Position numbers and translations under genes: made by a program. Of a DNA stretch of 50,748 nt, positions 9,475-50,298 are shown piece after piece. Within the stretch, counting starts at the first letter, position 1; every line of letters begins with the position of its first letter. Origin of the DNA: Kandleria vitulina DSM 20405 (GTDB lineage Bacteria; Bacillota_I; Bacilli_A; Erysipelotrichales; Coprobacillaceae); contig NZ_JNKN01000013.1 in NCBI RefSeq assembly GCF_000702065.1, positions 1 to 50,748 on the forward strand, given 5' to 3'. The notes beneath the pieces were generated by a model. That model ran no database searches, had not been told where the DNA came from, and saw nothing but the letters and a program-made list of their open reading frames with translations.

Positions 9475-9476
9475 GT

Positions 9477-10097: not shown

Positions 10098-10108
10098 AGT
10101 ACCATCTC

Positions 10109-10984
10109 CTATTTTAATGATTCATAATATTCTTTTGCGACATCCTGATAATCCTGTTTATCAATATCAACTTTTTTATTGAGAGTCTGTAGATCCTTTG
10201 TCGTTAATTTCTTATTGATAGGATCTAATATAGACGCAATCTTAGGATATTTTTTTAAGATATCACTTCTTACAATCGGTGCAACATTATAATCTGGCCA
10301 GAAATGCTTATCATCTTCTAGTAGTACATATTTAGAACTTGTAAGCTGTCCTTCTGATGTATATGCTGGAATGACATCACCTTTATCTTCATCAAGAAGA
10401 GAATACTTTAATGCATTGTCATAAACCTTGATTGATTTAAATTTAAATTCTCCATACACCTTAGTTAATCCAGGAATTCCATCTGCTCTTTTATCAAATT
10501 CTCCTTGAGAAATAACTCTTAGTTTTGATGCATGTTTCTGTAAATCACTAATTGTCTTAATACCATATTTCTTACTTACCTTACTTGAAACCGCAAGCCC
10601 ATTGCTGTCTTGTGCAGGTGACTTGGTAAGCCATTCTAATTTATATTTTTTCTTATATTCTTCTTTTACAATCTTGTAAATTTCATCCCCAGATACTGTT
10701 TCGGTATACCCCAATATTGAAATATATGCGGTTCCTGTATATCCAGGATAGAGATCAATCTTATTATTGACAATGGATGTGTGTACAGCACTTGATGAAA
10801 TATCAAATTGACGATTCACCTTAAATCCAGCATCTTCCAATGCTAAAGAATAGATTTCTGCCAATACTTCATTTTCTGTAAAGTTCTTACTGCCAACTCT
10901 GATGACTGGCTTATTAGATGAAGAACATCCTACCAGTAACGTTATTGATAAAACTGTAAGCATTAATGTCTTAATTATTTTCAT
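10109..10984 (-). CDS. Glycine betaine/carnitine/choline-binding lipoprotein (OpuBC/OsmF-like)
   Basis: This is the extracytoplasmic substrate-binding lipoprotein of the Opu-type importer, about 291 residues. The N-terminus MKIIKTLMLTVLSITLLVGC is a lipoprotein signal with the lipobox Cys at residue 20. Family motifs are VIRVGSKNFTENEVLAEIYS, then KIDLYPGYTGTAY and SSKYVLLEDDKHFWP. The start at 10984 is preferred: GGGAGGA lies eight bases before it, while an ATG six bases earlier is too close and longer forms lack a signal peptide. The gene overlaps the end of the oxidoreductase gene by 14 bases. The ligand is probably a quaternary ammonium osmolyte but cannot be fixed from sequence. Confidence 0.9.
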   Translation of the reverse strand: MKIIKTLMLTVLSITLLVGCSSSNKPVIRVGSKNFTENEVLAEIYSLALEDAGFKVNRQFDISSSAVHTSIVNNKIDLYPGYTGTAYISILGYTETVSGDEIYKIVKEEYKKKYKLEWLTKSPAQDSNGLAVSSKVSKKYGIKTISDLQKHASKLRVISQGEFDKRADGIPGLTKVYGEFKFKSIKVYDNALKYSLLDEDKGDVIPAYTSEGQLTSSKYVLLEDDKHFWPDYNVAPIVRSDILKKYPKIASILDPINKKLTTKDLQTLNKKVDIDKQDYQDVAKEYYESLK

Positions 10985-11939
10985 ATTCATTTCCTCCCAT
11001 GACCACAACTTTTCCAAAACTATTTGATGATTCCAAATACCTATGTGCTTCTACAATCGTATCAAGTGTAAAGATCTTTTCTGGCTTCACATTGATATGA
11101 TTGTTTTCAATATAAGCAAATAGATCATTCATCTCTTTCTCATTACGATCAGCACTTAATGCGGTCGTAAGATATACTGATCCGGGCATATCTACCAATG
11201 GTTCAAAATCAAATGACCATTGATTTCCAAGCAATCCAGTTACACAGATAATTCCTGATTTATTTATATGCTTGAATGTATTCTTGAGTGCAGCTGGTCC
11301 GACAAGATCAAGAATCTTATCATATTTCTTGCTTGTCTGAAGTTCATTTTGATAATCGATGATAACCTCATCAAATCCTGATTCAAGCAATAATTCCATC
11401 TTCTCAATATTTCTGGTTGTTCCAGTTACATGAATGTGCGGATACTTCCCTTTAAGCAACTTGAGAAATGCAAAACCTACACCGCTTGTTGCGGCTCTCA
11501 CAAGTACACTATCTACTTCATTGATTTTCAAATTCATCAAAGAAAGATAAGCCGTATAGTACGTTTCAGGTACAGCAGCAATCTCTTCCCAGGAAAGATT
11601 GCTTTCAATAGGATAAATCTGTTCATTAGGAAGAAGACAGTATTCAGCATAGCTGCCATCAAATGCTCTTCCCATTTCGCCCATAAGTGATACAACTTTT
11701 TGTCCCTTCACAAGTGTAGGGGATGTAGATTCCTCTACAACGCCTACACATTCAATACCTAATATTCTTGGAAACTTTACACTTGGTGATTCTCCTTTTC
11801 TTGTAAAGATTTCCGAATGATTGATGCCACGTCCTATTACTTTAATAAGTGACCACCCCTCTTTTACATCAGGACGGGCTACTTCCTGAATCAACAACTT
11901 CTCAGGTCCCCCTGCTTCATAGATGACTGCTGCTTTCAT
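10971..11939 (-). CDS. Quinone oxidoreductase-like zinc-free medium-chain dehydrogenase
   Basis: This 322-residue NAD(P)H-dependent medium-chain dehydrogenase/reductase starts MKAAVIYEAGGPEKLLIQEV. It has the catalytic-domain segment IGRGINHSEIFTRKGESP and FPRILGIECVGVVEE, and a Rossmann domain with VLVRAATSGVGFAFLKLL (about 145-162). The structural zinc cysteines of classical alcohol dehydrogenases are absent, which fits the quinone reductase branch. ATG 11939 follows AGGAGGATAGAT; an upstream in-frame start is not supported. It sits between the PNPOx-like gene and the Opu genes in one operon. Reduction of quinones or enals is plausible; substrate unknown. Confidence 0.87.
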   Translation of the reverse strand: MKAAVIYEAGGPEKLLIQEVARPDVKEGWSLIKVIGRGINHSEIFTRKGESPSVKFPRILGIECVGVVEESTSPTLVKGQKVVSLMGEMGRAFDGSYAEYCLLPNEQIYPIESNLSWEEIAAVPETYYTAYLSLMNLKINEVDSVLVRAATSGVGFAFLKLLKGKYPHIHVTGTTRNIEKMELLLESGFDEVIIDYQNELQTSKKYDKILDLVGPAALKNTFKHINKSGIICVTGLLGNQWSFDFEPLVDMPGSVYLTTALSADRNEKEMNDLFAYIENNHINVKPEKIFTLDTIVEAHRYLESSNSFGKVVVMGGNEYENN

Positions 11940-26014: not shown

Positions 26015-26878
26015 TTAATCATTTTTATTTAAATAATCTAAACTCATATCTTCGATAGACAAACCAGTAGAATTCATTTTATTATTCAATTCACTTAATT
26101 TCTTATCAGTAATATCCTTTCTCAAAGTATTCCAATATTTCAAAATCTCATTATGTTTTTTTATATACTCATTATTTGATAACATAACACAAGGATTTGA
26201 ACTAATAAGATTTTTATCATCTTTTAAAACAACGTATCTACTTGTTTTAATAGGAGACTCATTAGAACTTCCTAATACAATATCTAATTTATTTTCTAAA
26301 AGTTTTCTATAACGTTTTTTATATGAAACTATAGATTCATTATCCCATTTTCTAATATCGTACACTTTACAAATTTCATTAAATTTATCTAAATTAATAG
26401 AATCACAACCAACATTTAATTTAATGGAAACTTTTTTTAAATCACTTAATTTACTAACATTAAATTTTTTTGCATTCTTTTTCACCATAACAAATGAAAT
26501 TTTTCTATTTGCTTTAGTAAAAGAATTAAGATTAATCTTATAGCTTTTATTTATCTTTTTTTGATTTAATTCATATAAAGAATTAATATCTGATGCATTA
26601 CTACTCACATTTAATTCTTTTGAGATATTTTCTAAACCATTAATAGCGATATTAATCTCATTATTATTTATTTTATTTATAATTTCTCTACTTGATAAAC
26701 CATAGATTCTTTCAACATTATAGCCCACTTTTTCAAGTTGATCAGATAACAATTGAGCAACTAGTGCATCATCATTTGAAGTTGCACCTATAACAATGTT
26801 TCCTTTATGTTGATTTTTGATTGAAGATGTGCAACCTATTAAACAAAAACATAAAAGTATAATACTTATTTTTCTCAT
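26015..26878 (-). CDS. Orphan OpuBC-like lipoprotein
   Basis: This 287-residue lipoprotein (MRKISIILLCFCLIGC, lipobox Cys16) aligns by eye with the true Opu binding protein at 10109-10984: NIVIGATSNDDALVAQLLSD parallels VIRVGSKNFTENEVLAEIYS, and RYVVLKDDKNLISSNPCVM parallels KYVLLEDDKHFWPDYNVAP. The ligand-box strand DLYPGYTGTAY is replaced by NIAINGLENIS, so aromatic ligand contacts appear lost or changed. There is no permease or ATPase next to it; neighbours are glycosyltransferases, a GT-C-like membrane protein and a flippase. Composition is unusually rich in Lys and Asn. It may borrow the Opu permeases, bind a polymer substituent, or have a non-transport role. Confidence 0.75.
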   Translation of the reverse strand: MRKISIILLCFCLIGCTSSIKNQHKGNIVIGATSNDDALVAQLLSDQLEKVGYNVERIYGLSSREIINKINNNEINIAINGLENISKELNVSSNASDINSLYELNQKKINKSYKINLNSFTKANRKISFVMVKKNAKKFNVSKLSDLKKVSIKLNVGCDSINLDKFNEICKVYDIRKWDNESIVSYKKRYRKLLENKLDIVLGSSNESPIKTSRYVVLKDDKNLISSNPCVMLSNNEYIKKHNEILKYWNTLRKDITDKKLSELNNKMNSTGLSIEDMSLDYLNKND

Positions 26879-28555: not shown

Positions 28556-29275
28556 TTATCTCACCAAGCTCTTTCTTGATTTTCTTATCAGTATCGCAAA
28601 AAGTACGACATAACTTAATAAAACGATTACTACTTTTGTAGAAAATACATTTAATTTATTTTCTACTTTATAAGATAAATCATAATTTACTTTATATTTT
28701 AGCGTAACATCTTCATTTGGCTTTACCCCGTTTTTCTTTAACTCTTTTTTACCTTCTCTAAGATATGCTTCATTTTCTTCATTTAAATGTGTTAAAGATG
28801 TTTTAAGAGGTATTTCACTTTTCTCAGATAATAAAGTAACAAGTAATCCTACTGCTTTTCCTTTTTCACTATCAGTTGTAACTTTAATTCTATATTTCTT
28901 ACCTTTACTATTTTTTTGTGATTTAAAAGTGAAATCATGATGTCCATTGATATTTAGATTTTCTGCATCTAAAACTGTATTATAAACCACGTTATTACTG
29001 TCTAATTCAATTAATTGAACATTAACACTTCCTACATTATCCCTAGAATATTCATAAAAATATAATGAAAACTGATAAAGATTATTAAAGCGTGCTTTAA
29101 AATCTTGATATATGTATTCACCTTTAGTGATCTCACCAGAATTTACTTTTGTTTTAGTTAATCCGTCAATATATCTTATACGATTATTTAATGTATTATT
29201 TCTATTCCCTATAGTAAAAATTATTGCCCAAAAAACACTAAGAATTAGTGTCGCAATTACGAATTTTCTCTTCAA
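28556..29275 (-). CDS. Two-helix membrane-anchored extracytoplasmic protein
   Basis: I do not recognise this protein family. About 239 residues: an N-terminal membrane helix (KFVIATLILSVFWAIIFTIG), a beta-strand-rich outer domain of about 180 residues (FKARFNNLYQFSLYFYEYS, HDFTFKSQKNSKGKKYRI) and a C-terminal helix (VVIVLLSYVVLFAILI) with a basic tail. The layout resembles an outside sensor or accessory of the GT-C protein next door, as a jelly-roll-like glycan-binding module could be. Start choice: a GTG (29281) sits one base from the AGGAGG site, while TTG 29275 has seven-base spacing and is preferred. AGGAGG overlaps the stop codon of the upstream gene. Confidence 0.65.
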   Translation of the reverse strand: MKRKFVIATLILSVFWAIIFTIGNRNNTLNNRIRYIDGLTKTKVNSGEITKGEYIYQDFKARFNNLYQFSLYFYEYSRDNVGSVNVQLIELDSNNVVYNTVLDAENLNINGHHDFTFKSQKNSKGKKYRIKVTTDSEKGKAVGLLVTLLSEKSEIPLKTSLTHLNEENEAYLREGKKELKKNGVKPNEDVTLKYKVNYDLSYKVENKLNVFSTKVVIVLLSYVVLFAILIRKSRKSLVR

Positions 29276-29287
29276 GTCCACTCCTCC

Positions 29288-36634: not shown

Positions 36635-37678
36635 CTACTCTTCATCTAAAATATTCAAGAATGTCTCTAATGACCATAACAGCCATTTCTGATTACCAGT
36701 CATTGCCTTCTGGCAATGAGGAATAAATTCTTTTCTTTTTGGTCCTTCCCAATTCTCAAACCATTCATTAACTGGTCGAGGCATAGGTGTCTTAGGAGGA
36801 ACTACAAATCCTGGATATAGACTTTCAAATACTTCTCTAATAAGATATTTGTTTTCTCCTTTACGTACACGTTCAAGATCTAAGTCTACTGCCATTTCTG
36901 TCATCGCATATGGCATATAGCATTCTACTCCAGCTGCAGTTCCAGCATTGATATATGATCCAATGCTTTCAGGGAAGAAGATATGAGATAAGAAGCCATG
37001 TACATCGACATAACCATCTTTTGTATATTGTTTAAATGGTTCTAGTTCCCACTGTGGATTCATTAATGCATGATGTGGAAGGACATTTGAGAAACGATCA
37101 ATGAATTCTCCCATTGTCCAATCTCTGCTTAAAAGCATACTTAATCCACCGTATAATGAATCAGCACTTTCTCCAAATAATAATGTATCAAAGCCATCAG
37201 CTTTTGCCTGCATAGCTGCTTTATAGATCTGTACTTCAATAGAATGAATAGGAGCACCTTTCTGCTTCATCAATAATGGTGCATATTTCTCCATATCTTC
37301 CCAGTAGATCTTTACAACCTTATGATTAAGTCCACACTCTTTTGCATACTTTTGTGCAGCTGGTACTTCATTAGTAACTTCTTTACCAGGCACAATACAC
37401 TGAAATGTATAAGCTGTAGAACCTTTTGGCATAAACTTTGCAAGTACAGCTGAATCAATGCCCCCAGATAAAGCAAGAGCAACCTTGTGATTTTTGCATA
37501 GTTCTTCTACTTGATTTTTAAGAGTTTTATAAAGTTCATCACTATTATGAACCTGTACTCTGTTCTCCGGAATCTTTGTATAACGTGGAGGATACTTTAA
37601 TGAAAAGCATTTTGTCTGATCAATGACTGTTCTATAAGTCAGAAAAGAGCTCATGCAATAATCTCTATCTTCAATCAT
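36635..37678 (-). CDS. Asparagine synthetase C-terminal (PP-loop) protein without glutaminase domain
   Basis: This 347-residue AsnB-type ATP pyrophosphatase has the PP-loop VALALSGGIDSAVLAKFM (about 66-83) and LLFGESADSLYGG (about 166-178). A full AsnB has an N-terminal Cys-dependent glutaminase domain of about 200 residues; here only about 60 unrelated residues precede the PP-loop. It could use ammonia or another amine to amidate a carboxylated sugar or amino-acid substituent. Its ATG overlaps the cytidylyltransferase stop as TAATG, so the two are translationally coupled. Confidence 0.8.
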   Translation of the reverse strand: MIEDRDYCMSSFLTYRTVIDQTKCFSLKYPPRYTKIPENRVQVHNSDELYKTLKNQVEELCKNHKVALALSGGIDSAVLAKFMPKGSTAYTFQCIVPGKEVTNEVPAAQKYAKECGLNHKVVKIYWEDMEKYAPLLMKQKGAPIHSIEVQIYKAAMQAKADGFDTLLFGESADSLYGGLSMLLSRDWTMGEFIDRFSNVLPHHALMNPQWELEPFKQYTKDGYVDVHGFLSHIFFPESIGSYINAGTAAGVECYMPYAMTEMAVDLDLERVRKGENKYLIREVFESLYPGFVVPPKTPMPRPVNEWFENWEGPKRKEFIPHCQKAMTGNQKWLLWSLETFLNILDEE

Positions 37679-38112
37679 TATTTAACATCCTCCAATGTAT
37701 CTTTTCTAATATAGTTCAACGCTTTTCTGATCTGAGTTGAACTTGTACCCTTAGTATATGGGAAATAAACTATCTTGATGCCTGCTTCTTCAAATTCTTT
37801 TTCATAGGCTTTCCATTTATCAGTACCATACCAGTCATCACCTACAAATAGAATCTGGGCATTCAATTTTTTGCATGCTTCTAGCTTATCCATATTATAC
37901 TGTGGGACAGCTGCATCCACATATTTAATTGAACGTACAATTTCAATACGATCTTCAAAAGGAATCATTGCCTTCTTGCCCTTATAGCTTACAAGTTCAT
38001 CCACTGTAACACCAACGACAAGCTTGTCACACATTCCCTTAGCGTTCTTTAATAAATTCAAATGTCCGATATGAAATAAATCATAGACACCAGCAGTATA
38101 ACCAATGACCAT
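37678..38112 (-). CDS. TagD-like cytidylyltransferase
   Basis: This 144-residue nucleotidyltransferase has the TagD/PCT signatures GYTAGVYDLFHIGHLNLLKN (HxGH motif, about 4-23), VGVTVDELVSYKGKK, FEDRIEIVRSIKYVD and TKGTSSTQIRKAL with the ISSTKI-like loop. It activates a small phosphorylated alcohol (glycerol-3-phosphate, ethanolamine- or choline-phosphate) with CTP. GGAGGGG precedes its ATG. Neighbours are LicD (2 bases upstream) and the AsnB-like gene (1-base overlap), so its CDP product probably serves the LicD enzyme. Confidence 0.87.
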   Translation of the reverse strand: MVIGYTAGVYDLFHIGHLNLLKNAKGMCDKLVVGVTVDELVSYKGKKAMIPFEDRIEIVRSIKYVDAAVPQYNMDKLEACKKLNAQILFVGDDWYGTDKWKAYEKEFEEAGIKIVYFPYTKGTSSTQIRKALNYIRKDTLEDVK

Positions 38113-38114
38113 GC

Positions 38115-39068
38115 TTAACCCCTCCTTCTATCGACCTTTTTTATAAATCTATCATACCTATCTTCATGCACATATTCAAGGTAGGATTTCTCTGGATCAA
38201 AGAAAACACCACCATGAGCGCCTCCTCCTATCACAAATTCCTTCCAGTTGCCATAGAACTGATTTAAGAAGTCTTCATAGCCATTAGGAAGAGGAATCTC
38301 CAGCATTTCAAACTTATGATATGTGACATCACTAAACCATGCTTTCTTTAAGACAAGTTTTTCTCTGTATCTAAACATCACTTTACCAAATAATGGTGTA
38401 TTGGTATTTTGATATTTCACACATTTCTTCTTAAAATCTTCATAGATAGGATTCTTGAAATCATAGACATGTCTTAATGTCGTAATAATATTCTTTACAA
38501 AACCTTTAAGACCAGTTCTTCTATACATATTTTCCCAGAAGTAAGTGTATTCTCTTGCATCAAGCAAGGTCTTAAAACAATCGCTCATATAATGAGCACG
38601 TTCTTCTTGTTCTTCAGGTAAATCATCAAGTGGGAAAATATCTAAGAAGATTCCCTGATTATAGAGTACATGTCGCTTATCTTCCATCTTTAACATTCCA
38701 GTTGTAGAAGAATTTCTTAGCTGCGCATGACCACGCATGCTGCCGCGATCCGTTTCTTCAGTCTGGAAGAAGTAAGGCGCTTTAAAAGCTGCTGGCGCAA
38801 TCTCACATAGTTTTTCATAATCTTCTCTATACATGCATACATCGATATCATCATCCCAAGGAATCATCCCATTATGTCTGATAGCCCCAAGAATTGTACC
38901 GCCATCTGCGAACCATCTGATATCATGTTCTTTACATACACGCATAAATTCATTTAATAAATCTAATTCAACAGCCCAGATCTTCTTCATTTCTGCACTG
39001 ACAAGATAGCCATCACGTTCTTCTTCTTCAAGAAAACCTTCAGGCAATTCCAATTTGATATTTAACAT
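38115..39068 (-). CDS. LicD family phosphotransferase (second copy)
   Basis: This 317-residue LicD protein has WFADGGTILGAIRHNGMIPW followed by DDDIDVCMYREDYEKL (about 52-87) and GIFLDIFPLDDLPEEQ. A polar N-terminal extension (LPEGFLEEEERDGYLVSAEM) distinguishes it from the other two copies, and the C-terminus is basic (RFIKKVDRRRG). It is followed after two bases by the TagD-like gene, so the pair forms a likely donor-transferase module. Confidence 0.9.
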   Translation of the reverse strand: MLNIKLELPEGFLEEEERDGYLVSAEMKKIWAVELDLLNEFMRVCKEHDIRWFADGGTILGAIRHNGMIPWDDDIDVCMYREDYEKLCEIAPAAFKAPYFFQTEETDRGSMRGHAQLRNSSTTGMLKMEDKRHVLYNQGIFLDIFPLDDLPEEQEERAHYMSDCFKTLLDAREYTYFWENMYRRTGLKGFVKNIITTLRHVYDFKNPIYEDFKKKCVKYQNTNTPLFGKVMFRYREKLVLKKAWFSDVTYHKFEMLEIPLPNGYEDFLNQFYGNWKEFVIGGGAHGGVFFDPEKSYLEYVHEDRYDRFIKKVDRRRG

Positions 39069-39077
39069 GAGTTCCTC

Positions 39078-40523
39078 CTAATGTCTTAATTTAGCAAGAA
39101 GCTGATTCTTTGCAAAATCTATGACAAAGTCATCTTTCAAGATAACTAACATAAGACAGTATACACTAAATCCTACACCAACCTGAACAATGAGTGCAAT
39201 AAATCCAACGTTCATATATTGATTGATAAACAAGATCACCGCAAGCATAAGTGCTCCCGCAATAAGCTTGCGCCATAAATGTGAAAGAATAACACCCCAA
39301 GTCAGATAACGATTGCAGTGTCCAACATATAAAATAGTGATCGCACTCTCCGCAATAACAGTCGCAATCGCCGCACCTGCACTCATCAGATGAGGAATAA
39401 ACAGACAGTTCAATACAAAGTTGATGACTGATCCAGCAATAATATAATTAGCAGACTGCTTTCTTTTCCCTGAAGGAGTATAATACTGTGCCCCTAGACA
39501 GTTAGATAAGCCAATAATTACGACAACTGGACTCATAATCTCTAATAGCACAATTGTACGATCATATCCTGGTCCAAAGAACCAAGGTACAAATGTTCTC
39601 GCAATCCCCATCATACCAAAGAGAATCCCTATTCCCATAAAGAGAACATAGTTCACAGACGTATGGATTCTTCTTTTGATTTCATCATATTTCTTTTGTT
39701 CAAAAAGATAAGAAATACGTGACTGCATAACCATATTCAAGGCTACAAAAGTCAATGTTTTCATCATATCAAGAATCTTATTAGCCTGTTCATAATAACC
39801 ATTTTCAGCCTTATTATGAGTAATAAGCTGAATCAATGTTTTATCTAGAACATTATAGACTGAAGTCGCAATCGTTGGAATAAAGTATACCAGTGTTTCA
39901 TGAAAATGATGCTTCAATTTAATCGTCTTAAAGTCAATCTTACAGATAAACTTAGAAAGACCAGTCCACATTCCCACATTACCTGCAAAGTTCTGGAAAG
40001 CCACAATAAATATATAAATAAACAAATCACTAGGCTTCTTCACAAATAAGAACATGGCAATAACACTTAATACTCTAAAGATTGAATTCCATACGATCGT
40101 GAATTCAAAATGTTCAATACCGGCATAGAACCATGAAATATCAAACATGACGGCCAACAAGTTAAAACTTAATACCGCATAATAAATCGCATCACTCTTA
40201 TTAAAGAATGTGAAAATGCCCCAGAAAACAAGTGCTGCAGACGTTGTCAGCACTGTTAAGATCTCAATCTCCCAGAACAGCTGACTACGTCTTTCTTTAT
40301 CATTTCTCACACGTGCAATTTCACGTGTCCCATAAGTTACAGTCCCTAAAGCTGCAAATAAAGTGAAATACATGGAATAAGAATTCGTATAACTGTAAAT
40401 ACCGATATTCTTAGCTCCCAGTACTCTTGAAATATAAGGGGCGGTCAATAATGGCATAATGATCTTTAATATCTGATACATCATGCTCAATATGAAATTC
40501 TTTTTTAAGCTAGGCTGTTTCAT
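39078..40523 (-). CDS. Oligosaccharide flippase (Wzx-like), second copy
   Basis: This 481-residue multi-pass PST-family protein starts MKQPSLKKNFILSMMYQILK and IIMPLLTAPYISRVLGAKNI, then GIYSYTNSYSMYF, with about 12-14 helices to the end. It belongs to the same broad family as 23361-24821 but the sequences clearly differ (YISRVLGAKNIGIYSYTNS versus YAARLLGAANIGKVDFSNS). It would flip a different lipid-linked unit, or is a paralogue left from a merged locus. Confidence 0.9.
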   Translation of the reverse strand: MKQPSLKKNFILSMMYQILKIIMPLLTAPYISRVLGAKNIGIYSYTNSYSMYFTLFAALGTVTYGTREIARVRNDKERRSQLFWEIEILTVLTTSAALVFWGIFTFFNKSDAIYYAVLSFNLLAVMFDISWFYAGIEHFEFTIVWNSIFRVLSVIAMFLFVKKPSDLFIYIFIVAFQNFAGNVGMWTGLSKFICKIDFKTIKLKHHFHETLVYFIPTIATSVYNVLDKTLIQLITHNKAENGYYEQANKILDMMKTLTFVALNMVMQSRISYLFEQKKYDEIKRRIHTSVNYVLFMGIGILFGMMGIARTFVPWFFGPGYDRTIVLLEIMSPVVVIIGLSNCLGAQYYTPSGKRKQSANYIIAGSVINFVLNCLFIPHLMSAGAAIATVIAESAITILYVGHCNRYLTWGVILSHLWRKLIAGALMLAVILFINQYMNVGFIALIVQVGVGFSVYCLMLVILKDDFVIDFAKNQLLAKLRH

Positions 40524-40531
40524 CGTCTTGA

Positions 40532-41299
40532 TTACCTCTTATTCTTAGAAATATCTTCTTCAAAATACTTCTTAGAAATCTTACTCATAGTCCCATCACG
40601 ATCCATCTTCATAATAATGCGACTTACTTTATTGTTAAGAGAAGTCTGATCCAATCTCATCAAGAAAGAGAAATCATAGATAAGACTTGTCATTAATGCA
40701 ATCTTCACATCACTTTGAGGATGTCTTCTCTTATAATCATTATATGTCATAAGGTCAGTAACACTGGCCACAACTTTCTTATTAGAAACAAGATTAAGTG
40801 CTTCTTCACTATTTTCAACAGGTGTCATAAGTCCCCCATTGAAGTGATCTAGATATTCCCAATAAGTACCTTTCACACCACTTGTCTTCCTATTTCTAAT
40901 ATCCTGGAAAAGCTTGATATTGTTTTCCCCTTTGTTTGTGACAATGACCCCATAATCACATTTATACATTGTCGAATAAAGATATCTGACTTCCTTATCC
41001 GTCTCGCGATCAGGTTCCACCTGATTTGCGAGCATGTCTATTTTCTTATTGTCTAAATCTTTTAACAACTGATCCGCTGTCTTTGTCACAAACTCCACCT
41101 TATAGCCAAGTCTTGACGCAATCTCTTTGGCGATATCCACGTCGTATCCGACGTACTTATTGCCATCACTGTAAGAGAAAGGACGATAGTCCTTCTCGAT
41201 ACCGATTCTTATAATCCCACTTGTCTTCTTTCCTGAATGACATCCGCAAAGCAATGCGCAGGCAAGGAAGGCAGTGAGTATTTTTTTGATTGTATTCAT
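40532..41299 (-). CDS. Orphan family-3 solute-binding lipoprotein
   Basis: This 255-residue lipoprotein has the signal MNTIKKILTAFLACALLCGC (Cys20) and a bacterial extracellular solute-binding family 3 domain: IIRIGIEKDYRPFSYSDGNK, YVGYDVDIAKEIASRLGYK, LDNKKIDMLANQVEPDRET and KISKKYFEEDIS. Family 3 normally binds polar amino acids for ABC importers, but no permease or ATPase gene is near; both neighbours are polysaccharide genes (flippase and polymerase). ATG 41299 follows GTAGGAGGG; a longer start would overlap the polymerase gene and lose the signal peptide position. It is the second orphan binding lipoprotein in this locus. Confidence 0.82.
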   Translation of the reverse strand: MNTIKKILTAFLACALLCGCHSGKKTSGIIRIGIEKDYRPFSYSDGNKYVGYDVDIAKEIASRLGYKVEFVTKTADQLLKDLDNKKIDMLANQVEPDRETDKEVRYLYSTMYKCDYGVIVTNKGENNIKLFQDIRNRKTSGVKGTYWEYLDHFNGGLMTPVENSEEALNLVSNKKVVASVTDLMTYNDYKRRHPQSDVKIALMTSLIYDFSFLMRLDQTSLNNKVSRIIMKMDRDGTMSKISKKYFEEDISKNKR

Positions 41300-41309
41300 G
41301 TTTGCCCTC

Positions 41310-43010
41310 CTACAAGTAGATATTATGTTCAACAGGATCCAATACTTTTAAGTTACCTGTCTCATAATAGATATAAGTCATATACGTATCAGGAATCATT
41401 TTTGAAACATCAAGGGATGCCTCAAATCCACTATATTTATAGGACTGTGGATTCTGAATACGTTTCTGATAGTAATCATTGACATCATCACGCTTAGATA
41501 ATGTCGTATCCATCTTATAATAAAGATTAGATTTCTTTGCACGAAGAACAACGGTCATCTTCGTCTTAGGAGTACTTCCATGACGATCAAGGACATACCA
41601 TCCTTTACAATAAAGCATGCCATCCTTGACATAATACTCTTCCATCCCAAAGCTATGTTTAAGATTGATTGTATATTCATCAGGATGAATAATCATCACA
41701 TTGCGATTCATGCGATGATATTCAATTGTAGATACCACCATCATAATGACAACACATCCTAACACAATACAGCTGCCAATCTTTTGAGCACCCTTAAGCA
41801 AAGGTTTGCCTCTAAATGCTCTTAAAGATGACAACGTAAAGACAAGTACCAATGACGCATTGCTCATTAATCCTGAAGTAATGCACGACAACATGAGAAT
41901 CATAAACATCACAAAGATCTCATGATGCTTTTCTCTCTTATAAAAAGCAATCAGACCAGCACTAATTAAAATAAGCATCAAAATAGAAATGATAATTCCT
42001 CTTTCTACAATAAGCTGCATATAGCCACTATCAATGAAGTTAGAACCAAACACTTCTGAAACATTATAATGAAGTGCATCATAGCCATATGTCTTCATAT
42101 GATTACCAAAAAGATGAATACCATTATTGACAATATTTCCATAGACAAAAGACAATCTTCTAGAAAGAATATCATTCAATCTAAAGAAGATACCACCAAG
42201 TCTATAACATAATGTCATAAGCAATGTTCCTACCGGAACCAAGGCAAAAAGAAAGACAAATGCTTTCTCACCCCATAATAGTATTGGTCTTACCCATTCC
42301 ATAAATGGTGTCTTCTTTATTACAACTAAAACAAGAAGTAACTGTACCATCAAGAAGTATGTACGGGTATCCGTAATAAAATAAGTAGCTAAACTTGCCA
42401 TCTCTATAATCATAAGATCTTTCCAAGAAAGATCCATCTTCTTGATATAGACATAATACAAAGAGGCAAATCCAACAATTGAAGATACTGTTGCAGAATA
42501 GCCAAAGCCAACCGCAAAACGTGTTACTCCACTATCCGCATCTCTAAAAGTAAGATAATTATCAATCAGTCCAAAAGAACTTAATAGTGGTATAAATAAT
42601 CCAACACCTAAAAGAATACCAGCTGTAACACCCGCAACATGCTTTAAAGGATAGCGTGATAAGACTATAGCCAATAGAACCATCATCACAAACTGATAGC
42701 CACCAGTAACCTTATAGTTAATAAGACTCGCCATCACTAAAGCAATAAGCAGTACTGAAAAAATAATATCCTGTATGCTAAATTGTTTCTCTTTTCTTTC
42801 TTTATAGAAATCATAGAGAAGATAAAGAGATTCAATAATAAAGAAGGCAAAACATGCCAAACGATTAATCTTTAATATCACGGGCATAAAGCCAAAACGA
42901 TTAACCAAGGATGTTCCATTAATAAGCAATGTCAAATAATAAAAGCCATAGATTCCTAAAACAAGCTTCTCCTGTTCTAGGAATCTTTCTACCATATTCT
43001 TCTCTCTCAT
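41310..43010 (-). CDS. Wzy-like polysaccharide polymerase / O-antigen ligase-like protein
   Basis: This 566-residue protein has about 12 membrane helices in the first 440 residues and a C-terminal outer domain of about 120 residues (YHRMNRNVMIIHPDEYTINL to LKVLDPVEHNIYL) not found in typical Wzy. The large loop FRLNDILSRRLSFVYGNIVN and HYNVSEVFGSNFIDSGYMQL around residues 275-330 matches the outer loop of Wzy/WaaL polymerases, and ITDTRTYFLMVQLLLVL is similar to their RTxxL segment. Start 43010 has GAGG seven bases upstream and overlaps the Galf transferase stop; ATG 42995 is an alternative. Polymerisation of the lipid-linked repeat is the likely role. Confidence 0.82.
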   Translation of the reverse strand: MREKNMVERFLEQEKLVLGIYGFYYLTLLINGTSLVNRFGFMPVILKINRLACFAFFIIESLYLLYDFYKERKEKQFSIQDIIFSVLLIALVMASLINYKVTGGYQFVMMVLLAIVLSRYPLKHVAGVTAGILLGVGLFIPLLSSFGLIDNYLTFRDADSGVTRFAVGFGYSATVSSIVGFASLYYVYIKKMDLSWKDLMIIEMASLATYFITDTRTYFLMVQLLLVLVVIKKTPFMEWVRPILLWGEKAFVFLFALVPVGTLLMTLCYRLGGIFFRLNDILSRRLSFVYGNIVNNGIHLFGNHMKTYGYDALHYNVSEVFGSNFIDSGYMQLIVERGIIISILMLILISAGLIAFYKREKHHEIFVMFMILMLSCITSGLMSNASLVLVFTLSSLRAFRGKPLLKGAQKIGSCIVLGCVVIMMVVSTIEYHRMNRNVMIIHPDEYTINLKHSFGMEEYYVKDGMLYCKGWYVLDRHGSTPKTKMTVVLRAKKSNLYYKMDTTLSKRDDVNDYYQKRIQNPQSYKYSGFEASLDVSKMIPDTYMTYIYYETGNLKVLDPVEHNIYL

Positions 43011-44083
43011 AGGCAGGCCTCGATGGCTTTTTTAGTAAAGTAGCCTTCTCTTAATTTTTGTGAAAGCATCTTTGTGCTATCAAGCATTGACTGATACTCT
43101 TCATCAGACAATGAAGATAAAGTATCATGAATATCTTTCACATCATCAACGACAATACCACAATGATGCTTCAACACAAAGTCAGCTAAAGCTGCCTGTT
43201 TCCATATCACTACCGGTATACCGCTAGATAGATAGAACGATGTTTTATGAGGATTATTGATCTTCAAGTATTCTCCAAATACACCAGTACATGTCTTAGA
43301 TGTCAAGCCATCCCATACAAGACCAAAGCTTCCCTTAACAGCGTAAGGCAATGCTTCTGGTTCAAATGAACCATGATAGCGAATAAGATCTGTTTCATTG
43401 CCAGTGTAATTGATGCCATAAAGATTGAAAGACTGATTATCTGGAAGATCATAGACATATCCTGCTTTTTCTTTAATAAGATTAGCCGCAATAATGATAG
43501 GCTGATCTTTTCTTAAATGTTTTCTGACTTCATCATAATGGAAATCATCTACAAGATAATCAAAGATTTCTAGATCTACCATATGATCATCATCAATATC
43601 GATAAGCTCCTTAAGTGTCTCTCTCATATGACTATTATGAACAATCACCTTATGAGCAATCTTTAAGATATCTGTTTCTTCTCTTTGAATTCTAAAACGT
43701 TTCTTGCGATCCGCATTCTCTCTCTTCATTGCTCTAAAGAGTTCAATATCATGAATAAGAAGATTGATCTTAACACCTTTCTTTTGTGCTTTCTTAAAGA
43801 CACCTGCTAAAAGTAAAGAGTGTTCGACAATCGGGAACTGGATAAAGAGATCATCTCCTTTATTTAATGAAGAAAGAGCATCTTCCCAGTTCTTCTTAAT
43901 AATGAAATGACATTTCAATTTATTAAATACATTCAGATTCTTGCGATCTTCAACACTCGTAGTGACAAGCAGTCTCTTGATGCCAAAACGTTCACAGAAT
44001 GCTTCAAAGTCATCTCTAGCCTTATAGCCAGCTGTTCTTGCAAGATCTTCTCCCTGTTTTGTTTCTTTTACATAATATTTCAT
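43007..44083 (-). CDS. Galactofuranosyltransferase-like glycosyltransferase (copy A)
   Basis: This 358-residue GT-B glycosyltransferase resembles beta-1,6-galactofuranosyltransferase-type proteins: MKYYVKETKQGEDLARTAGY at the start, DLFIQFPIVEHSLLLAGVFK, INLLIHDIELFR, and in the second lobe INNPHKTSFYLSSGIPVVIW and AALADFVLKHHCGIVVDD. The start at 44083 has AAGGAGATCGGT just upstream; the ATG 51 bases earlier is read from the tail of the neighbour. It shares most motifs with the adjacent 44094-45164 gene, so the two are a tandem duplication. Glf nearby supplies UDP-Galf. Confidence 0.8.
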   Translation of the reverse strand: MKYYVKETKQGEDLARTAGYKARDDFEAFCERFGIKRLLVTTSVEDRKNLNVFNKLKCHFIIKKNWEDALSSLNKGDDLFIQFPIVEHSLLLAGVFKKAQKKGVKINLLIHDIELFRAMKRENADRKKRFRIQREETDILKIAHKVIVHNSHMRETLKELIDIDDDHMVDLEIFDYLVDDFHYDEVRKHLRKDQPIIIAANLIKEKAGYVYDLPDNQSFNLYGINYTGNETDLIRYHGSFEPEALPYAVKGSFGLVWDGLTSKTCTGVFGEYLKINNPHKTSFYLSSGIPVVIWKQAALADFVLKHHCGIVVDDVKDIHDTLSSLSDEEYQSMLDSTKMLSQKLREGYFTKKAIEACL

Positions 44084-44093
44084 ACCGATCTCC

Positions 44094-45164
44094 TTAAAGA
44101 CATGCCTGAATTGCTTTTCTTGTATAATATCCATTTGTCAGTTTCTGACTCATTTCTTTGGTATGAAGAAGAATATCCTGATAATCTTCTTCACTCATTT
44201 GATCTACAACAGACTTGATATCATCCAATGAATCTACGACAATACCACAATGATGCGCCTTTACAAAATCTGCTAAAGCCGCATGGGACCAGATGACAAC
44301 TGGAAGTCCAACTGATAAGTAGAACGATGTCTTATGGGGATTATTAATACGTAAATAATCACCATAAGTACCTGTACAAGTATCCTTGCTTTCACCATCC
44401 CATACAAGACCATAGCCACCTTCAATTGCATAAGGCAAATCATTTGGTGGGAATGAACCAAAGTATGAAATCATATCATTGGTTTTTCCTTCATATTCAA
44501 TACCATAAAGATGGAAAGGATAATTTTCAGGTAAATCATAAGCATAGGCTGCTTTTCTTTTTCTTAGATTACCAGCAATAATGACAGCACCATCTTTACT
44601 GTATTTCTTCTGATTATCTTCTACATTAAAATCACTTAATAGATAATCAAAGATTTCAAGTACAACTAATTTATTTACATCTACAAGATCACTCATATAA
44701 TCTTTCATCTTTTCATTATGAACAATGATATGATCTGCGTAATCTAAAATAGAATATTCTTCAAACTTTAATCTTTTTCTTTCTTTTAAAGATACATCTT
44801 CTCTCTTTGACCATCTCAGCATTTCTAAATCATGAACAAGAAGAACGATCTTTACCTGTCTTTTCTTTAATGACTTAAAGACTTTATATAAAAATAATGA
44901 ATGATCTACGATTGGGAACTGTACAAATAATGTATCTCCATCATGAAGAGCACTTAATCTCTTTGCCCAGTTTACTTTAATTTTATGATGAGCCATCAGC
45001 TTAGTGAAGGCATTCCCTTTTTCTCGATCTTCTATTACACTTTGAATTGGAAAAGGCTTAATGCCCATATCTTCAAAGATGCTTTCTACATCATCTCTAG
45101 CCTTAAAGCCAGCAGTACGTGAAAGGTCATCTCCATACTTGATTTCTTTAATATAATAATTCAT
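44094..45164 (-). CDS. Galactofuranosyltransferase-like glycosyltransferase (copy B)
   Basis: This 356-residue paralogue of copy A starts MNYYIKEIKYGDDLSRTAGF. It has DTLFVQFPIVDHSLFLYKVF, IVLLVHDLEMLRWSKRED, RINNPHKTSFYLSVGLPVVI and AALADFVKAHHCGIVVDS. The close block-by-block match points to tandem duplication followed by divergence, perhaps for alternating linkages or acceptors. It lies between a LicD gene and copy A, 10 bases from the latter. Confidence 0.8.
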   Translation of the reverse strand: MNYYIKEIKYGDDLSRTAGFKARDDVESIFEDMGIKPFPIQSVIEDREKGNAFTKLMAHHKIKVNWAKRLSALHDGDTLFVQFPIVDHSLFLYKVFKSLKKRQVKIVLLVHDLEMLRWSKREDVSLKERKRLKFEEYSILDYADHIIVHNEKMKDYMSDLVDVNKLVVLEIFDYLLSDFNVEDNQKKYSKDGAVIIAGNLRKRKAAYAYDLPENYPFHLYGIEYEGKTNDMISYFGSFPPNDLPYAIEGGYGLVWDGESKDTCTGTYGDYLRINNPHKTSFYLSVGLPVVIWSHAALADFVKAHHCGIVVDSLDDIKSVVDQMSEEDYQDILLHTKEMSQKLTNGYYTRKAIQACL

Positions 45165-45970
45165 TATTCATCCTCCAGTGTCACATGCATTTCATGTGTC
45201 TGTCTTTTTTCAATTGGTGGTAATTCCATGTAGTTACCATAGATTCCCGTAAGATATTCATCCCAACAGCTCATTGCCTTAAATGTATATCCTTCAAATA
45301 AGACATCATCACTCTTCAGGAATTTCTCTTTATCCATGGCTTCCCCTTTACCATATAATCCCCAAGTTACTACACCTGCTTTATTAGCTTTATCAAAAGG
45401 AACCTTGTATGCTTGTTCTAATATCTTCTTATTACATTTATCAATCCCATAGATTTTCGCAAAAGGAATCACAAAACGTTTTAACATTCTCTTTAATCTT
45501 GTCTTTCCTTCATTGGGATTAGCCCAGTTAAGCTTTAATAGTTTTCTATAGAAATTAGTCTTCTTGTAGATCTTTTCAATCTCTTCTTCCTTATCAGGAA
45601 GGCCATCCACAGGTAAAATATCAACCCATAATGAAGAGGAAGCATCCTCTTGCATATACTTCTCTTTCACTTTAGTACGTGTATCAATAAGTTTCATAAA
45701 TGGATATGAATCAGTACCATTTTCATAACAGACAAGTTTTAAATGTTTTGAGAATTCATCTTCAAGATGAATAAGCTTCATATAATCAGGACGAGGCATA
45801 CAAACATCAATATCATCATCCCAAGGAATAAATCCCTTATGTCTGATTGCCCCAAGAAGACTTCCTCCCGCAAGATAAAGTCTTAATCCGTGTGCATCGC
45901 ACACCTTCTGCAATTCTAAAAGAATATCTAATTCAGTCTTTTTTATTTCATCTAAGTTTAATTTTCTCAT
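45164..45970 (-). CDS. LicD family phosphotransferase (third copy)
   Basis: This 268-residue LicD protein starts MRKLNLDEIKKTELDILLEL, a common LicD beginning, at ATG 45970; an ATG 18 bases earlier overlaps the GT2 gene and lacks a good ribosome site. Core motif: LYLAGGSLLGAIRHKGFIPW with DDDIDVCMPRPDYMKL, then LWVDILPVDGLPDKEE. It overlaps the next gene by one base at 45164. The third LicD implies several sites or kinds of phospho-decoration in this locus. Confidence 0.9.
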   Translation of the reverse strand: MRKLNLDEIKKTELDILLELQKVCDAHGLRLYLAGGSLLGAIRHKGFIPWDDDIDVCMPRPDYMKLIHLEDEFSKHLKLVCYENGTDSYPFMKLIDTRTKVKEKYMQEDASSSLWVDILPVDGLPDKEEEIEKIYKKTNFYRKLLKLNWANPNEGKTRLKRMLKRFVIPFAKIYGIDKCNKKILEQAYKVPFDKANKAGVVTWGLYGKGEAMDKEKFLKSDDVLFEGYTFKAMSCWDEYLTGIYGNYMELPPIEKRQTHEMHVTLEDE

Positions 45971-45971
45971 A

Positions 45972-46922
45972 TTACTTTTTTCTCGCATTCTGCTTTACTC
46001 TTAATACATAAATCAATCCTGCTAAGGAATGTAAATGGCATTTCATCAATAAGAAAGGTAAATAACGTGGCTTCAATGAAGTTTTCAAAGAAAGATCCTG
46101 ATAAGCTTCCTTAAAAATAGGAACATTAAGCACACGCTTCATATTTTCTACTTTTTCCTTATAGCTTGATTGATTCGATAAAGCATAATTCTCTCGTACC
46201 ATTATAACATTAAAATGCATCAAGACATATGATGAAAACGCCTTCCTGATAGACAAGGATGCATCATTGATCGCATTCTTGCTTTCATTCATTGCTTCAA
46301 TGTAGCCCTCTGTCTTTCTTCCATCATAGCTTCTCATAACTGAAGTATCATCTAGTGAATAATGATAGACATTACGTGAAGAAAAATAGATGCTTTTACA
46401 ATGAAGAACATAACGCAAAGTAAAATCTCCATCTTCAGCTACACGTAAATGCGACGCAAAACGCAATTGATATCTTTCAATGATATCTCTCCTCATAAGA
46501 AGACCCCATACAGCCATACATTTAGTAGGATTCTCTAACATCATGATTGTAGCACTTTCTATATCAGTATTATTTTCTTGCCACAATCCTAGATCGACAC
46601 GATGAGATCCAACTTCATAGCTCATGACAATCAGATCTTCATCTCTTTCCTCATAGCTGTTTAATACATAATCATCCGCATCCACAAAAGCAATCCATTC
46701 ACCTCTCGCATGATCCAATCCCATATTTCTCGCATTGGATACACCCTTTTCTGACTGAAAGACGCGAACCTTATCCAATGAATTTGCCAATTCGTAAGTC
46801 TGATCTGTAGATCCATTTTCTACAATGATAATTTCATAGTTTTCATGGTGTGAACGAATACTTTCCACACATCTCTTTAGACTCTTTTCTGCATTATAGG
46901 CAGGAATAATAAAAGATATCAT
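45972..46922 (-). CDS. Family 2 glycosyltransferase
   Basis: This 316-residue GT2 has MISFIIPAYNAEKSLKRCVE (1-20), IIIVENGSTDQTYELANSLD, NARNMGLDHARGEWIAFVDA and DADDYVLNSYEERDED (metal-binding DADD near residue 79). The C-terminal part is basic with a possible amphipathic end (LVLMKCHLHSLAGLIYVLRV region). It heads the unit running from here to about 35.2 kb, after a terminator-like hairpin that separates it from glf. Confidence 0.88.
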   Translation of the reverse strand: MISFIIPAYNAEKSLKRCVESIRSHHENYEIIIVENGSTDQTYELANSLDKVRVFQSEKGVSNARNMGLDHARGEWIAFVDADDYVLNSYEERDEDLIVMSYEVGSHRVDLGLWQENNTDIESATIMMLENPTKCMAVWGLLMRRDIIERYQLRFASHLRVAEDGDFTLRYVLHCKSIYFSSRNVYHYSLDDTSVMRSYDGRKTEGYIEAMNESKNAINDASLSIRKAFSSYVLMHFNVIMVRENYALSNQSSYKEKVENMKRVLNVPIFKEAYQDLSLKTSLKPRYLPFLLMKCHLHSLAGLIYVLRVKQNARKK

Positions 46923-47016: not shown

Positions 47017-48120
47017 CTAGTCTAATTCTTTTTTCACACAGTTAAGTGCAACTGCAATTGTATCATCCATATCGAAGTACTTGTACATACCAAGTCTACC
47101 ACCAAAGATGACATGTCCTTCTTCATCAGCCAATGCTTTATATTTAGCATAAAGACTATTGTTTTTCTCATTGTTCATAGCGTAGTAAGGTTCATCCCCT
47201 CTAGACCATGATGCAGGATATTCTCTAGTGATAACTGTACGTGGCTGTGTACCGTATTCAAAATGTTTATGTTCAATGATTCTTGTATAAGGTACTTCAT
47301 ATTCAGTGTAGTTTACAACCGCATTACCCTGATAGTTTTCTTCATCCAATACTTCAGTTTCAAAACGTAATGAACGATATTCCAATTCACCAAACTTGTA
47401 GTCGTAATACTGATCAATCATACCTGTATAGATAATCTTATCTGCAATGTTTTCTAATTCTTCACGATTTTCTAAGAAGTCTGTATTTAATCTGACTTCA
47501 ATGCCTTCTAGCATCTTTTCGATAATCTGTGTATATCCACCTTTAGGGATTCCCTGATAATCATCATTGAAGTAGTTGTTGTCGTAAGTTAATCTTACTG
47601 GAAGTCTCTTAATGATAAATGAAGGAAGTTCTGTACAAAGCTTACCCCATTGTTTTTGAGTATAGCCTTTAATTAATTTTTCATAAATATCTGTACCAAT
47701 TAAGCTGATTGCCTGTTCTTCAAGGTTCTTTGGTTCAGTGATGCCGGCTTCTTTCTTCTGTTCTTCAATCTTAGCCATAGCTTCTTTTGGTGTTCTGATT
47801 CCCCAAAGCTTGCTGAAGGTATTCATGTTGAATGGAAGATTGTAGACTTCATCCTTGTAGAATGCCACTGGGGAATTTGTATATCTATTGAATTCCGCAA
47901 ACTGCTGAATATAATCCCATACTTCCTTGTTGCTTGTATGGAAGATATGTGCACCATATTTATGAACATTGATGCCTTCTACATTTTCTGTATAGATGTT
48001 TCCTGCTACATGATCTCTTTTATCAATAACAAGAACCTTCTTGCCTCTCTTGTTTGCTTCATAAGCAAAGATGGAACCAAATAGACCTGTTCCTACTACC
48101 AAATAATCATACTGTGCCAT
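47017..48120 (-). CDS. glf: UDP-galactopyranose mutase
   Basis: Glf, 367 residues, is a flavoprotein that interconverts UDP-galactopyranose and UDP-galactofuranose in the cytoplasm. It has the N-terminal FAD-binding YDYLVVGTGLFGSIFAYEAN and KRGKKVLVIDKRDHVAGNIY, then KYGAHIFHTSNKEVWDYIQQ, GYTQKQWG with the conserved Trp region, and RVLTYDNNYFNDDYQGIPKG-like blocks typical of the family. The product, UDP-Galf, feeds the tandem galactofuranosyltransferase-like enzymes at 43007-45164. It lies 12 bases after the DUF4422 gene. Confidence 0.97.
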   Translation of the reverse strand: MAQYDYLVVGTGLFGSIFAYEANKRGKKVLVIDKRDHVAGNIYTENVEGINVHKYGAHIFHTSNKEVWDYIQQFAEFNRYTNSPVAFYKDEVYNLPFNMNTFSKLWGIRTPKEAMAKIEEQKKEAGITEPKNLEEQAISLIGTDIYEKLIKGYTQKQWGKLCTELPSFIIKRLPVRLTYDNNYFNDDYQGIPKGGYTQIIEKMLEGIEVRLNTDFLENREELENIADKIIYTGMIDQYYDYKFGELEYRSLRFETEVLDEENYQGNAVVNYTEYEVPYTRIIEHKHFEYGTQPRTVITREYPASWSRGDEPYYAMNNEKNNSLYAKYKALADEEGHVIFGGRLGMYKYFDMDDTIAVALNCVKKELD

Positions 48121-48915: not shown

Positions 48916-50298
48916 TTACATGGCTCCTGTTCCATGAATAATACTACGAACGGTCTTATAGACAATGACAATATCAAGCCACAATGACCAGTTCTTATAA
49001 TAATAGACATCTAATTTGCATCTTCCTTCAAAAGAAAGATTGCTGCGGCCATTGGCCTGCCACATACCAGTAATACCTGGCTTAACTTCAATAATATTGG
49101 AATAATAATATCCCATATCCTGCTTTTCACGAGGAAGGTATGGTCTTGGTCCTACCAATGCCATATCTCCAAGCAGAACATTAAAGAACTGTGGAAATTC
49201 ATCAAGTGATGATTTTCTAAGAAAATGTCCTACCTTAGTAATACGAGGATCATTTTCTAGTTTCTTATTCTTTAAATATTCCTCTCTGATTTTAGGATCA
49301 TCTCTCATAAGTTCTTCTAGCTTCTCTTCCGCATTAGGAATCATGCTTCTAAACTTATAGATTGTAATCTCTTTGCCATGATGACCAATTCTTGTCTGCT
49401 TAAAGAAAATAGAATCATGATCACCATTCTTTAGACAGATGATCTTCACAAAAATAGCTAAAAAGACAGTTAATATTGATCCAATTAATCCAAAGATAAT
49501 ATCAAAGAAACGTTTAAGGATTGTATCAAACACACTCATCTTATCTCTAGAAGTAGAAATAAGCAGAATCCCATCGAAATCCTGAACCTGTGAAGAGAAA
49601 TTCATTGTATTATTATCTCTTGGCATATATTTAACAGATTCTACAAGATCTCCTACTGTAGACATGATTGTATCATATCCTTCTTCTGTAATGCTGTTTT
49701 CTACAATTACAACCTGTTGGATATCATTGTCCTTAATGACATCTATAACATCCTTATACTTAAAGACCTTAAAACGATCTTTTGGTATTCTTTCTTCTTC
49801 AATAACATTAGGGAAAGCCTGCTTAAATACATCTGGATCATTAAGATCCACGAAACCTAGCACTTCAGTAATCGCAAAGCGGTTATTATTGGCAATTCTC
49901 GCATAACGCAATGAATCACTGCTTGTTCCCATAACCAATGTCTTTGTCTTAAGCTGATGTCTTAAAACAATACGCAATGTTCTAGACAAGAAGATACATG
50001 CGACAAACATAACCATTGCCAGAAAGACAATGTAACGTCTTTTATCCTGATGAATCCCCTGAGGAATAACAACGATAAAAGTTAAGATGTAAACAAGACA
50101 TGCCTTAAACACATTCTTGATTTCTTCCCACACCAATGTATCTTCAATAGAATAATGTCCAAAGATGAACATATATACTATAAATAATCCTAATGTCTGT
50201 CTAAATAGTCCGACATTGATATCAAATAAGTTAAAGAAGAAATAATAGATTAATATTTCGAATACAATTAATAATAACGAAAGTATTTTTCTACTCAT
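48916..50298 (-). CDS. Undecaprenyl-phosphate sugar phosphotransferase (priming enzyme, WbaP/CpsE-like)
   Basis: This 460-residue polyisoprenyl-phosphate hexose-1-phosphate transferase starts the repeat unit on undecaprenyl phosphate. About four membrane helices lie at the N-terminus (to about residue 110), followed by a CoA-binding-like central domain (LKTKTLVMGTSSDSLRYARI) and, after a further membrane helix near 280-300, the catalytic bacterial sugar transferase domain. That domain has FFKQTRIGHHGKEITIYKFR, KSSLDEFPQFFNVLLGDMAL with its acidic pair, VGPRPYLPRE and KPGITGMWQANGRS. It is the first gene of the locus; no wzd/wze or LytR gene precedes it in this window. Confidence 0.95.
   Translation of the reverse strand: MSRKILSLLLIVFEILIYYFFFNLFDINVGLFRQTLGLFIVYMFIFGHYSIEDTLVWEEIKNVFKACLVYILTFIVVIPQGIHQDKRRYIVFLAMVMFVACIFLSRTLRIVLRHQLKTKTLVMGTSSDSLRYARIANNNRFAITEVLGFVDLNDPDVFKQAFPNVIEEERIPKDRFKVFKYKDVIDVIKDNDIQQVVIVENSITEEGYDTIMSTVGDLVESVKYMPRDNNTMNFSSQVQDFDGILLISTSRDKMSVFDTILKRFFDIIFGLIGSILTVFLAIFVKIICLKNGDHDSIFFKQTRIGHHGKEITIYKFRSMIPNAEEKLEELMRDDPKIREEYLKNKKLENDPRITKVGHFLRKSSLDEFPQFFNVLLGDMALVGPRPYLPREKQDMGYYYSNIIEVKPGITGMWQANGRSNLSFEGRCKLDVYYYKNWSLWLDIVIVYKTVRSIIHGTGAM

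Follow-up and report, generated by a model that had tools for sequence, protein, structure and literature searches.

The closest described relatives of the protein reported here are the receptors of SBP_bac_3 cystine and arginine importers (2yln, YckB 2iee and LAO), which it resembles in fold, in sequence family, in one pocket Asp and in the lipoprotein anchor that these solute-binding proteins (SBPs) carry in Gram-positives. It differs from them in standing without a permease or ATPase, in a ligand-clamp Arg that is lost or displaced, in gained Lys and Arg residues, and in its location within a Wzx/Wzy-type polymer cluster. The use of the SBP fold without transport is already known, and what appears to be new is the Wzx/Wzy-cluster setting, on which we found no paper among the titles and beginnings of abstracts in the open-licence literature (a weak negative). 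Excerpts of PMC6069109 describe GlnH of the GlnH-GlnX-PknG system as an SBP working without transport, an amino-acid-family lipoprotein in an operon with a membrane protein, as here, and in this SBP class a Ser, an Arg and an Asp hold the amine and carboxyl groups of the ligand. GlnH, according to the same excerpts, retains a complete amino-acid clamp and passes its signal to a kinase, whereas our protein has an altered clamp and a Wzy-like protein as membrane neighbour, and the annotated genes at 26989-50298 include no member of a kinase family. CuaD, which with CuaSR forms a three-component sensor, is presented in an extract of PMC10384115 as a second SBP used for sensing and not for transport, a role similar to the one we propose, but its ligand is a sugar and its partner a histidine kinase, and no kinase was found in the cluster studied here. 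Lic-1 and LicD-modified polymers, as outlined in part of PMC10434233, pair LicD with a cytidylyltransferase in a surface polymer cluster, as does our locus, which however has no LicA or LicB among its annotated genes, probably uses CDP-glycerol as donor and has an SBP added; of the phosphorylcholine pathway, only LicD and a cytidylyltransferase of the glycerol-3-phosphate type were found in the cluster.

The window (the whole stretch of 50,748 nucleotides that was analysed, from Kandleria vitulina DSM 20405, genome G000) contains the lipoprotein gene within a polymer cluster (Table 1); counterparts are present in two genomes of another genus of the same family (G019 and G020), and we refer to the three as lone SBPs. 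The original prediction named a family-3 binding lipoprotein at this position, and the exact open-reading frame, ribosome-binding site, lipobox and SBP_bac_3 match are all present. The Pfam match (E=9.7e-31) reaches 106.7 bits against a curated cut-off of 26.4 and a two-lobed SBP fold is predicted, which together place the protein in the SBP_bac_3 family and set the assignment apart from chance. The AF2 model is weak (pLDDT 74.7, built on three sequences), its top structural matches are SBPs and their derivatives, and the nearest solved relative is the cystine receptor 2yln (E=1.5e-24). A profile match to MltF, whose SBP_bac_3 domain may regulate a glycan enzyme, was also seen; a literature search listed no paper on MltF under the terms used. 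Cys20 is an invariant column in the alignment with 34 relatives. The AGGAGGG is a strong ribosome-binding site 5 nt before the ATG, with gaps of 10 nt to the upstream polytopic gene (stop at 41310) and 8 nt to the downstream Wzx gene (start 40523). The predicted placement between Wzx- and Wzy-like genes holds in that both flank the SBP gene, although "Wzy" is a name given by context, as the polytopic protein has no Pfam family above cut-off; its AF2 model (pLDDT 41.0) is unusable. The names Wzx, Wzy, LicC and PntC are presumed likenesses for the genes to which we apply them.

Table 1 Features of the lone SBP gene, its polymer cluster and a second lone lipoprotein gene in the window.
Feature	Position	Strand	Basis or remark
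Lone SBP_bac_3-fold lipoprotein	40532..41299	-	255 aa, ATG start; PF00497 and AF2 model
Lipobox L-C-G-C, residues 17-20; Cys20 predicted lipidated	41240..41251	-	sequence
Ligand-clamp loop (residues 94-104), altered and lengthened compared with relatives; carboxylate Arg replaced or displaced	40988..41020	-	alignment
AGGAGGG ribosome-binding site; overlaps the stop codon of the Wzy-like gene upstream	41305..41311	-	sequence
Polytopic Wzy-like protein, 566 aa	41310..43010	-	hydrophobic segments; assigned by context
C-terminal domain of Wzy-like protein, probably extracytoplasmic	41313..41693	-	comparison with G019 open-reading frame
Wzx flippase	39078..40523	-	PF01943; 65% identical in G019
LicD-family phosphotransferase (LicD2)	38115..39068	-	PF04991
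Glycerol-3-phosphate-type cytidylyltransferase	37678..38112	-	PF01467; TIGR01518 below cut-off
Asparagine-synthase-like ATPase without glutaminase domain	36635..37678	-	PF00733
Two PRK09814-type (galactofuranosyltransferase-like) transferases	43007..45164	-	matches below curated cut-offs
Second LicD of the cluster	45164..45988	-	PF04991
UDP-galactopyranose mutase (Glf)	47017..48120	-	PF03275
Initiating sugar-phosphate transferase, WbaP type	48916..50298	-	PF02397, TIGR03025
Lone OpuAC-fold lipoprotein, beside a transferase and another Wzx	26015..26878	-	PF04069 E=2e-19

Read in transcription order, the cluster encodes a WbaP-type transferase, a DUF4422 protein, Glf, a GT2, LicD, two galactofuranosyltransferase-like proteins, the Wzy-like protein, the SBP, Wzx, LicD2, the cytidylyltransferase and the asparagine-synthase-like protein; the initiating transferase, glycosyltransferases and flippase of Wzx/Wzy-type surroundings are thus all present. 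At 54, compared with a mean of 65.4 in shuffled sequence, promoter matches did not exceed chance, and the promoter and terminator scan does not define the limits of the operon. In G019 and G020 a glycerol-3-phosphate dehydrogenase is fused to a glycerol-3-phosphate-type cytidylyltransferase (L017:6890-8350 and L019:6425-7885), which would make CDP-glycerol in one protein. Given the type of the window cytidylyltransferase and this fused counterpart, the donor is most likely CDP-glycerol that the cell makes internally and that LicD presumably uses; no importer would be needed for it. The polymer is probably decorated with glycerol phosphate, as well as being LicD-modified and galactofuranose-containing. 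The asparagine-synthase-like ATPase beside the cytidylyltransferase perhaps amidates a group of the polymer.

No ABC permease or ATPase occurs among the Pfam-annotated genes of the SBP's cluster, and so the cognate permease and ATPase that an amino-acid importer subunit would have are missing at this locus. The window genome encodes six SBP_bac_3 proteins; each of the other five has an ATPase and permease as neighbours or is itself fused to one. When the permease of a close transporter-linked relative was used as query, six amino-acid-type permeases came up, all at the places of these five SBPs, and there is consequently no free permease of the lone SBP's type in this genome; nor is there a close counterpart of the clade's own permease, all six being only 31-35% identical to the query. 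The claim that the SBP stands without permease or ATPase is therefore borne out both for its neighbourhood and, as regards free amino-acid-type permeases, for the rest of the genome, whilst the sharing of another system's remote permease is possible.

The lone state recurs in few genomes. Of the 43 genomes of the family, eight, the window's included, match the window SBP at E <= 1e-20; five of the other seven carry their matches in ordinary SBP-permease-ATPase sets, and in G019 and G020 the SBP is lone and lies beside LicD2 and a cytidylyltransferase, with relatives of Wzx and Wzy either within that cluster or on a separate contig. When the 294 genomes of the order were searched with a profile built from the three lone proteins, 40 matched at E <= 1e-40; the scores were 432-470 bits for the three proteins that made up the profile and at most 195 for the next order genome. 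Judged by phmmer labels for ATPase or permease, the 37 non-lone matches comprise five already linked at family level and 32 others, 31 of them with such a label alongside; for the remaining one (L049) an ATPase fragment at a contig edge was all that was seen, the SBP itself having been missed by the ORF caller. An SBP_bac_3 gene lies within 10 kb of LicD in 3/43 family genomes and an OpuAC gene in 1/43, counts that contig breaks may hold down, whereas LicD occurs in 19 of the 43, with 40 copies in total. Across 392 genomes of the phylum there are 41 Wzx-related loci, two of which are those of G000 and G019 and one that of G274; neither an SBP_bac_3 nor an OpuAC gene was found in the 38 others, which include that of G261 and several of which are cut by contig ends; further SBP families were sought in these loci through lipobox open-reading frames, a few of which were scanned. 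The phylum search gave no lone member beyond G000 and G019 (G020 being absent from its match list), and when named genomes were scanned with the profile of the lone proteins, only the record of G020 (RUG246) and a Nocardia protein beside a permease came up. A lone SBP_bac_3 protein in a polymer cluster is thus real, shared and rare, and the repeated pattern of lone binding proteins that had been claimed does recur in polymer clusters but is far from common.

In a 42-row tree the three lone SBPs form one clade (support 100/99, stem 1.04) nested among transporter-linked SBPs, the nearest being transporter-linked proteins of the same family, and a single change to the lone state was obtained in 100% of 200 bootstrap trees. 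Long branches are flagged (1.55 for LONE_window) and attraction is conceivable; the gene context common to the three favours one origin. On this single origin in the tree, the protein would have been captured once in this bacterial family.

The ligand site of the lone SBPs is altered. The carboxylate Arg, invariant at the 90% level in 34 linked relatives, is replaced by K in the window protein, E in that of G019 and Q in that of G020, the clamp loop is longer by 2 to 6 residues in the alignment, and the Ser at the helix start has become T, D and D, whilst the pocket Asp is kept. The conserved carboxylate Arg of amino-acid importers is thus missing from its column, with some doubt in the window copy, where, next to a Thr at the helix start and a Lys102 aligned with the clamp Arg, an Arg98 lies only two places off and makes the loss less sure than in G019 and G020. 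The AF2 model falls below pLDDT 50 at residues 98-102, within this loop. Classical clamp residue numbers beyond those of the GlnH paper are in part assumed by us. Five residues, K36, K80, K113, R135 and E148, are found in all three lone proteins and in 0/34 linked ones. With eight rows removed, five of them distant SBPs and the other three duplicates of the lone proteins, the lone SBPs keep 24, 28 and 30 of 47 invariant columns, compared with 38-47 of 47-51 in leave-one-out controls among the 34 linked SBPs (the six lowest and two highest). A lone SBP_bac_3 of another class in G019 (L142:9170), whose 19-kb locus bears no capsule-type label, retains 63 of 65 columns, which indicates that being lone does not itself cause decay of the ligand site. 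The cleft of the lone SBP would accordingly, as far as its residues tell, have moved away from free amino acids and may still bind an amine. The suggested recruitment to another task agrees with the lack of a partner nearby or free and with the divergence of both lone proteins of the window (see below for OpuAC) at the ligand site, whilst the role of glycan helper attached to it would be putative. L142:9170 is itself a relative of the SBP of a full system about 12 kb away and is probably a second binding protein for that transporter. Net charge was considered as a sign of polymer binding and rejected: the lone SBPs are neutral to basic (0 to +9) and the 34 linked relatives average -18.6, but the other measured SBPs of the window genome are basic too, so that charge reflects the genome.

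The gene order between genomes shows which neighbour is constant. In the window it is Wzy, SBP, Wzx, LicD2, and in G019 Wzx, Wzy, a small membrane-anchored protein, SBP, LicD2 and the glycerol-3-phosphate dehydrogenase/cytidylyltransferase fusion. The small protein of G019 is the C-terminal domain of the window Wzy standing alone (36% identity over 129 columns); this domain, which gave no match in Pfam or PDB searches, occurs in 2/294 order genomes with the SBP directly downstream in both. It was not found in G020, whose contig ends at that point, and among the clusters with known Wzy relatives (G019, G020, G011 and G028), the two without an SBP (G011 and G028) are also without the domain. The conserved neighbour is therefore the polymerase with its C-terminal domain, which the SBP follows in two of three genomes, and not the flippase: of the proposed position next to both, the polymerase side is stable and Wzx changes place. 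Across three pairs of genomes, the SBP and Wzy share 33.9 and 31.3%, 50.2 and 56.4%, and 32.9 and 37.0% identity, respectively, whereas Wzx shares 65.1, 75.1 and 67.1%, and Glf 84.4%. This divergence in step is a lead and not proof, given the small number of pairs (three) and the inheritance of the cluster as one unit.

A second lone lipoprotein in a polymer cluster of the window had also been predicted, and it is indeed there, an OpuAC-like protein adjoining a transferase and a Wzx gene. OpuAC is a choline- and betaine-binding family. In an alignment of 21 rows (20 loci were fetched, one of which, L122, yielded nothing at the phmmer threshold) the lone protein keeps 17 of 48 invariant columns against 33-40 of 40-49 in controls, and lacks the D-x-Y-x-x-Y-T-G-T motif kept by 19-20 of 20 full-system proteins. 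Its gene has a GC content of 22% (12.8% at third positions) against 33-37% in eight genes of the SBP cluster, and such AT-richness suggests that it was probably acquired from elsewhere. A complete OpuB-type transporter, encoded elsewhere in the window (8121-11017), is distinct from the lone OpuAC protein meant in the original prediction.

We propose, with a probability of about 0.5, that an amino-acid (cystine-type) SBP was domesticated and now works outside the cytoplasm as an accessory or sensor of the polymerase module, not as part of an importer. Captured once by a Wzx/Wzy cluster building a LicD-modified, galactofuranose-containing polymer, it would no longer serve an ABC importer; its lipid anchor would hold it outside the cytoplasmic membrane, a site that we prefer to the "outer membrane face" of the original wording, which ill fits a Gram-positive-type relative of the Erysipelotrichaceae, and there it may act with Wzy and the C-terminal domain. 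The reshaped cleft would most likely bind a group that carries an amine or is cationic in some other way, whether this belongs to the growing polymer or is itself a free small molecule, and the open/closed movement of the protein may promote or gate polymerisation. The proposal rests directly on the family and predicted fold, the lipobox, the absence of an adjacent or free transporter, the single origin, the altered loop, the place after Wzy (2/3) and the divergence in step with Wzy; the ligand class, the partner and the accessory or sensing action are inferred. Features common to the three lone proteins are not independent, being drawn from three members in two genera, and may have come with the whole cluster. 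Against domestication, related Wzx clusters work without a lone SBP (0/38 loci), and a divergence as fast as that of Wzy could equally mean weak constraint on the gene.

The main alternative, unlikely in our estimation, is that the lone SBP is an extra receptor delivering a cystine-like amino acid to a remote ABC transporter, its place in the cluster being incidental. Its kinship with the cystine receptor 2yln, the retention of the amine-clamp Asp and the other lone SBP of this type in G019, related to the SBP of a full system 12 kb away, all speak for such an arrangement, but the permeases of G000 are distant from that of the clade and each already has its own SBP, the clamp Arg is lost or displaced in all three lone SBPs, and the cluster context stayed constant in two genera while Wzx moved. 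Alternatively, the SBP might catch an external amine or phosphonate for import, activation with CTP and transfer to the polymer by LicD. Clusters of LicD2 and Wzx2 in two other genera (G261 and G274) do combine a full SBP_bac_6 importer with a nucleotidyltransferase, PMC10434233 describes how Lic-1 couples choline uptake (LicB) to LicD, and the lone OpuAC protein belongs to a choline/betaine-binding family; with no permease encoded in the SBP cluster, a donor that is most likely internal CDP-glycerol and an OpuAC protein that has lost its ligand motif, we regard this as quite unlikely.

That the gene is a passenger drifting in a mobile capsule cluster, with no present function, would fit its rarity (3/294 order genomes) and its fast divergence (33.9% identity between genera, where Wzx keeps 65%), yet we hold it to be very unlikely: the open-reading frames are intact with a lipobox in three genomes, the ribosome-binding site is strong, the fold is predicted to be intact, the five derived residues are common to all three proteins and the place after Wzy is kept. 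Conversion into an enzyme acting outside the membrane on the polymer or lipid-linked unit, in the manner of cyclohexadienyl dehydratase (CDT), whose SBP origin is reported in the excerpted text of PMC7683729, is highly improbable. Sequence and fold matches do include CDT and its reconstructed ancestors, but the ancestor match is generic, since the ancestors of CDT were also ordinary amino-acid SBPs, and no catalytic residues were recognised.

Domestication beside the polymerase may extend to both lone lipoproteins. It is a tentative possibility that members of two unrelated families, SBP_bac_3 and OpuAC, have both become, within one genome, subunits of Wzx/Wzy systems that act outside the cytoplasm, their clefts reading the undecaprenyl-linked unit or polymer and their closure on a Wzy-attached domain gating polymerisation or substitution. 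If true, such proteins would form a class of polymerase regulator distinct in build from the usual copolymerases. Little is understood of the way in which Wzy polymerases recognise and count their units on the outer side of the membrane, and a soluble ligand-cleft protein tied to a polymerase in a defined operon would offer an easily purified handle on unit recognition. A caution also follows for annotation, in that lone binding proteins in capsule clusters should not be labelled as amino-acid transport genes.

Some neighbouring observations concern other polymer clusters. A 241-aa protein at 28556-29281, with a hydrophobic segment seemingly at each end, adjoins a DUF2142 gene in the neighbouring polymer cluster; its best Pfam match (E 0.095) stays below cut-off. 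In G261 (L085:7446-11475) and G274 (L055:11182-15514), from two other genera of the class, a full SBP_bac_6 lipoprotein ABC importer directly follows LicD2/Wzx2, together with a LicC/PntC-like nucleotidyltransferase that is fused to the permease in G274; these clusters possibly import, activate and attach an external substituent. In G274 an ApbE-family lipoprotein (L055:7566-8522) is encoded directly before the Wzx gene of the LicD cluster.
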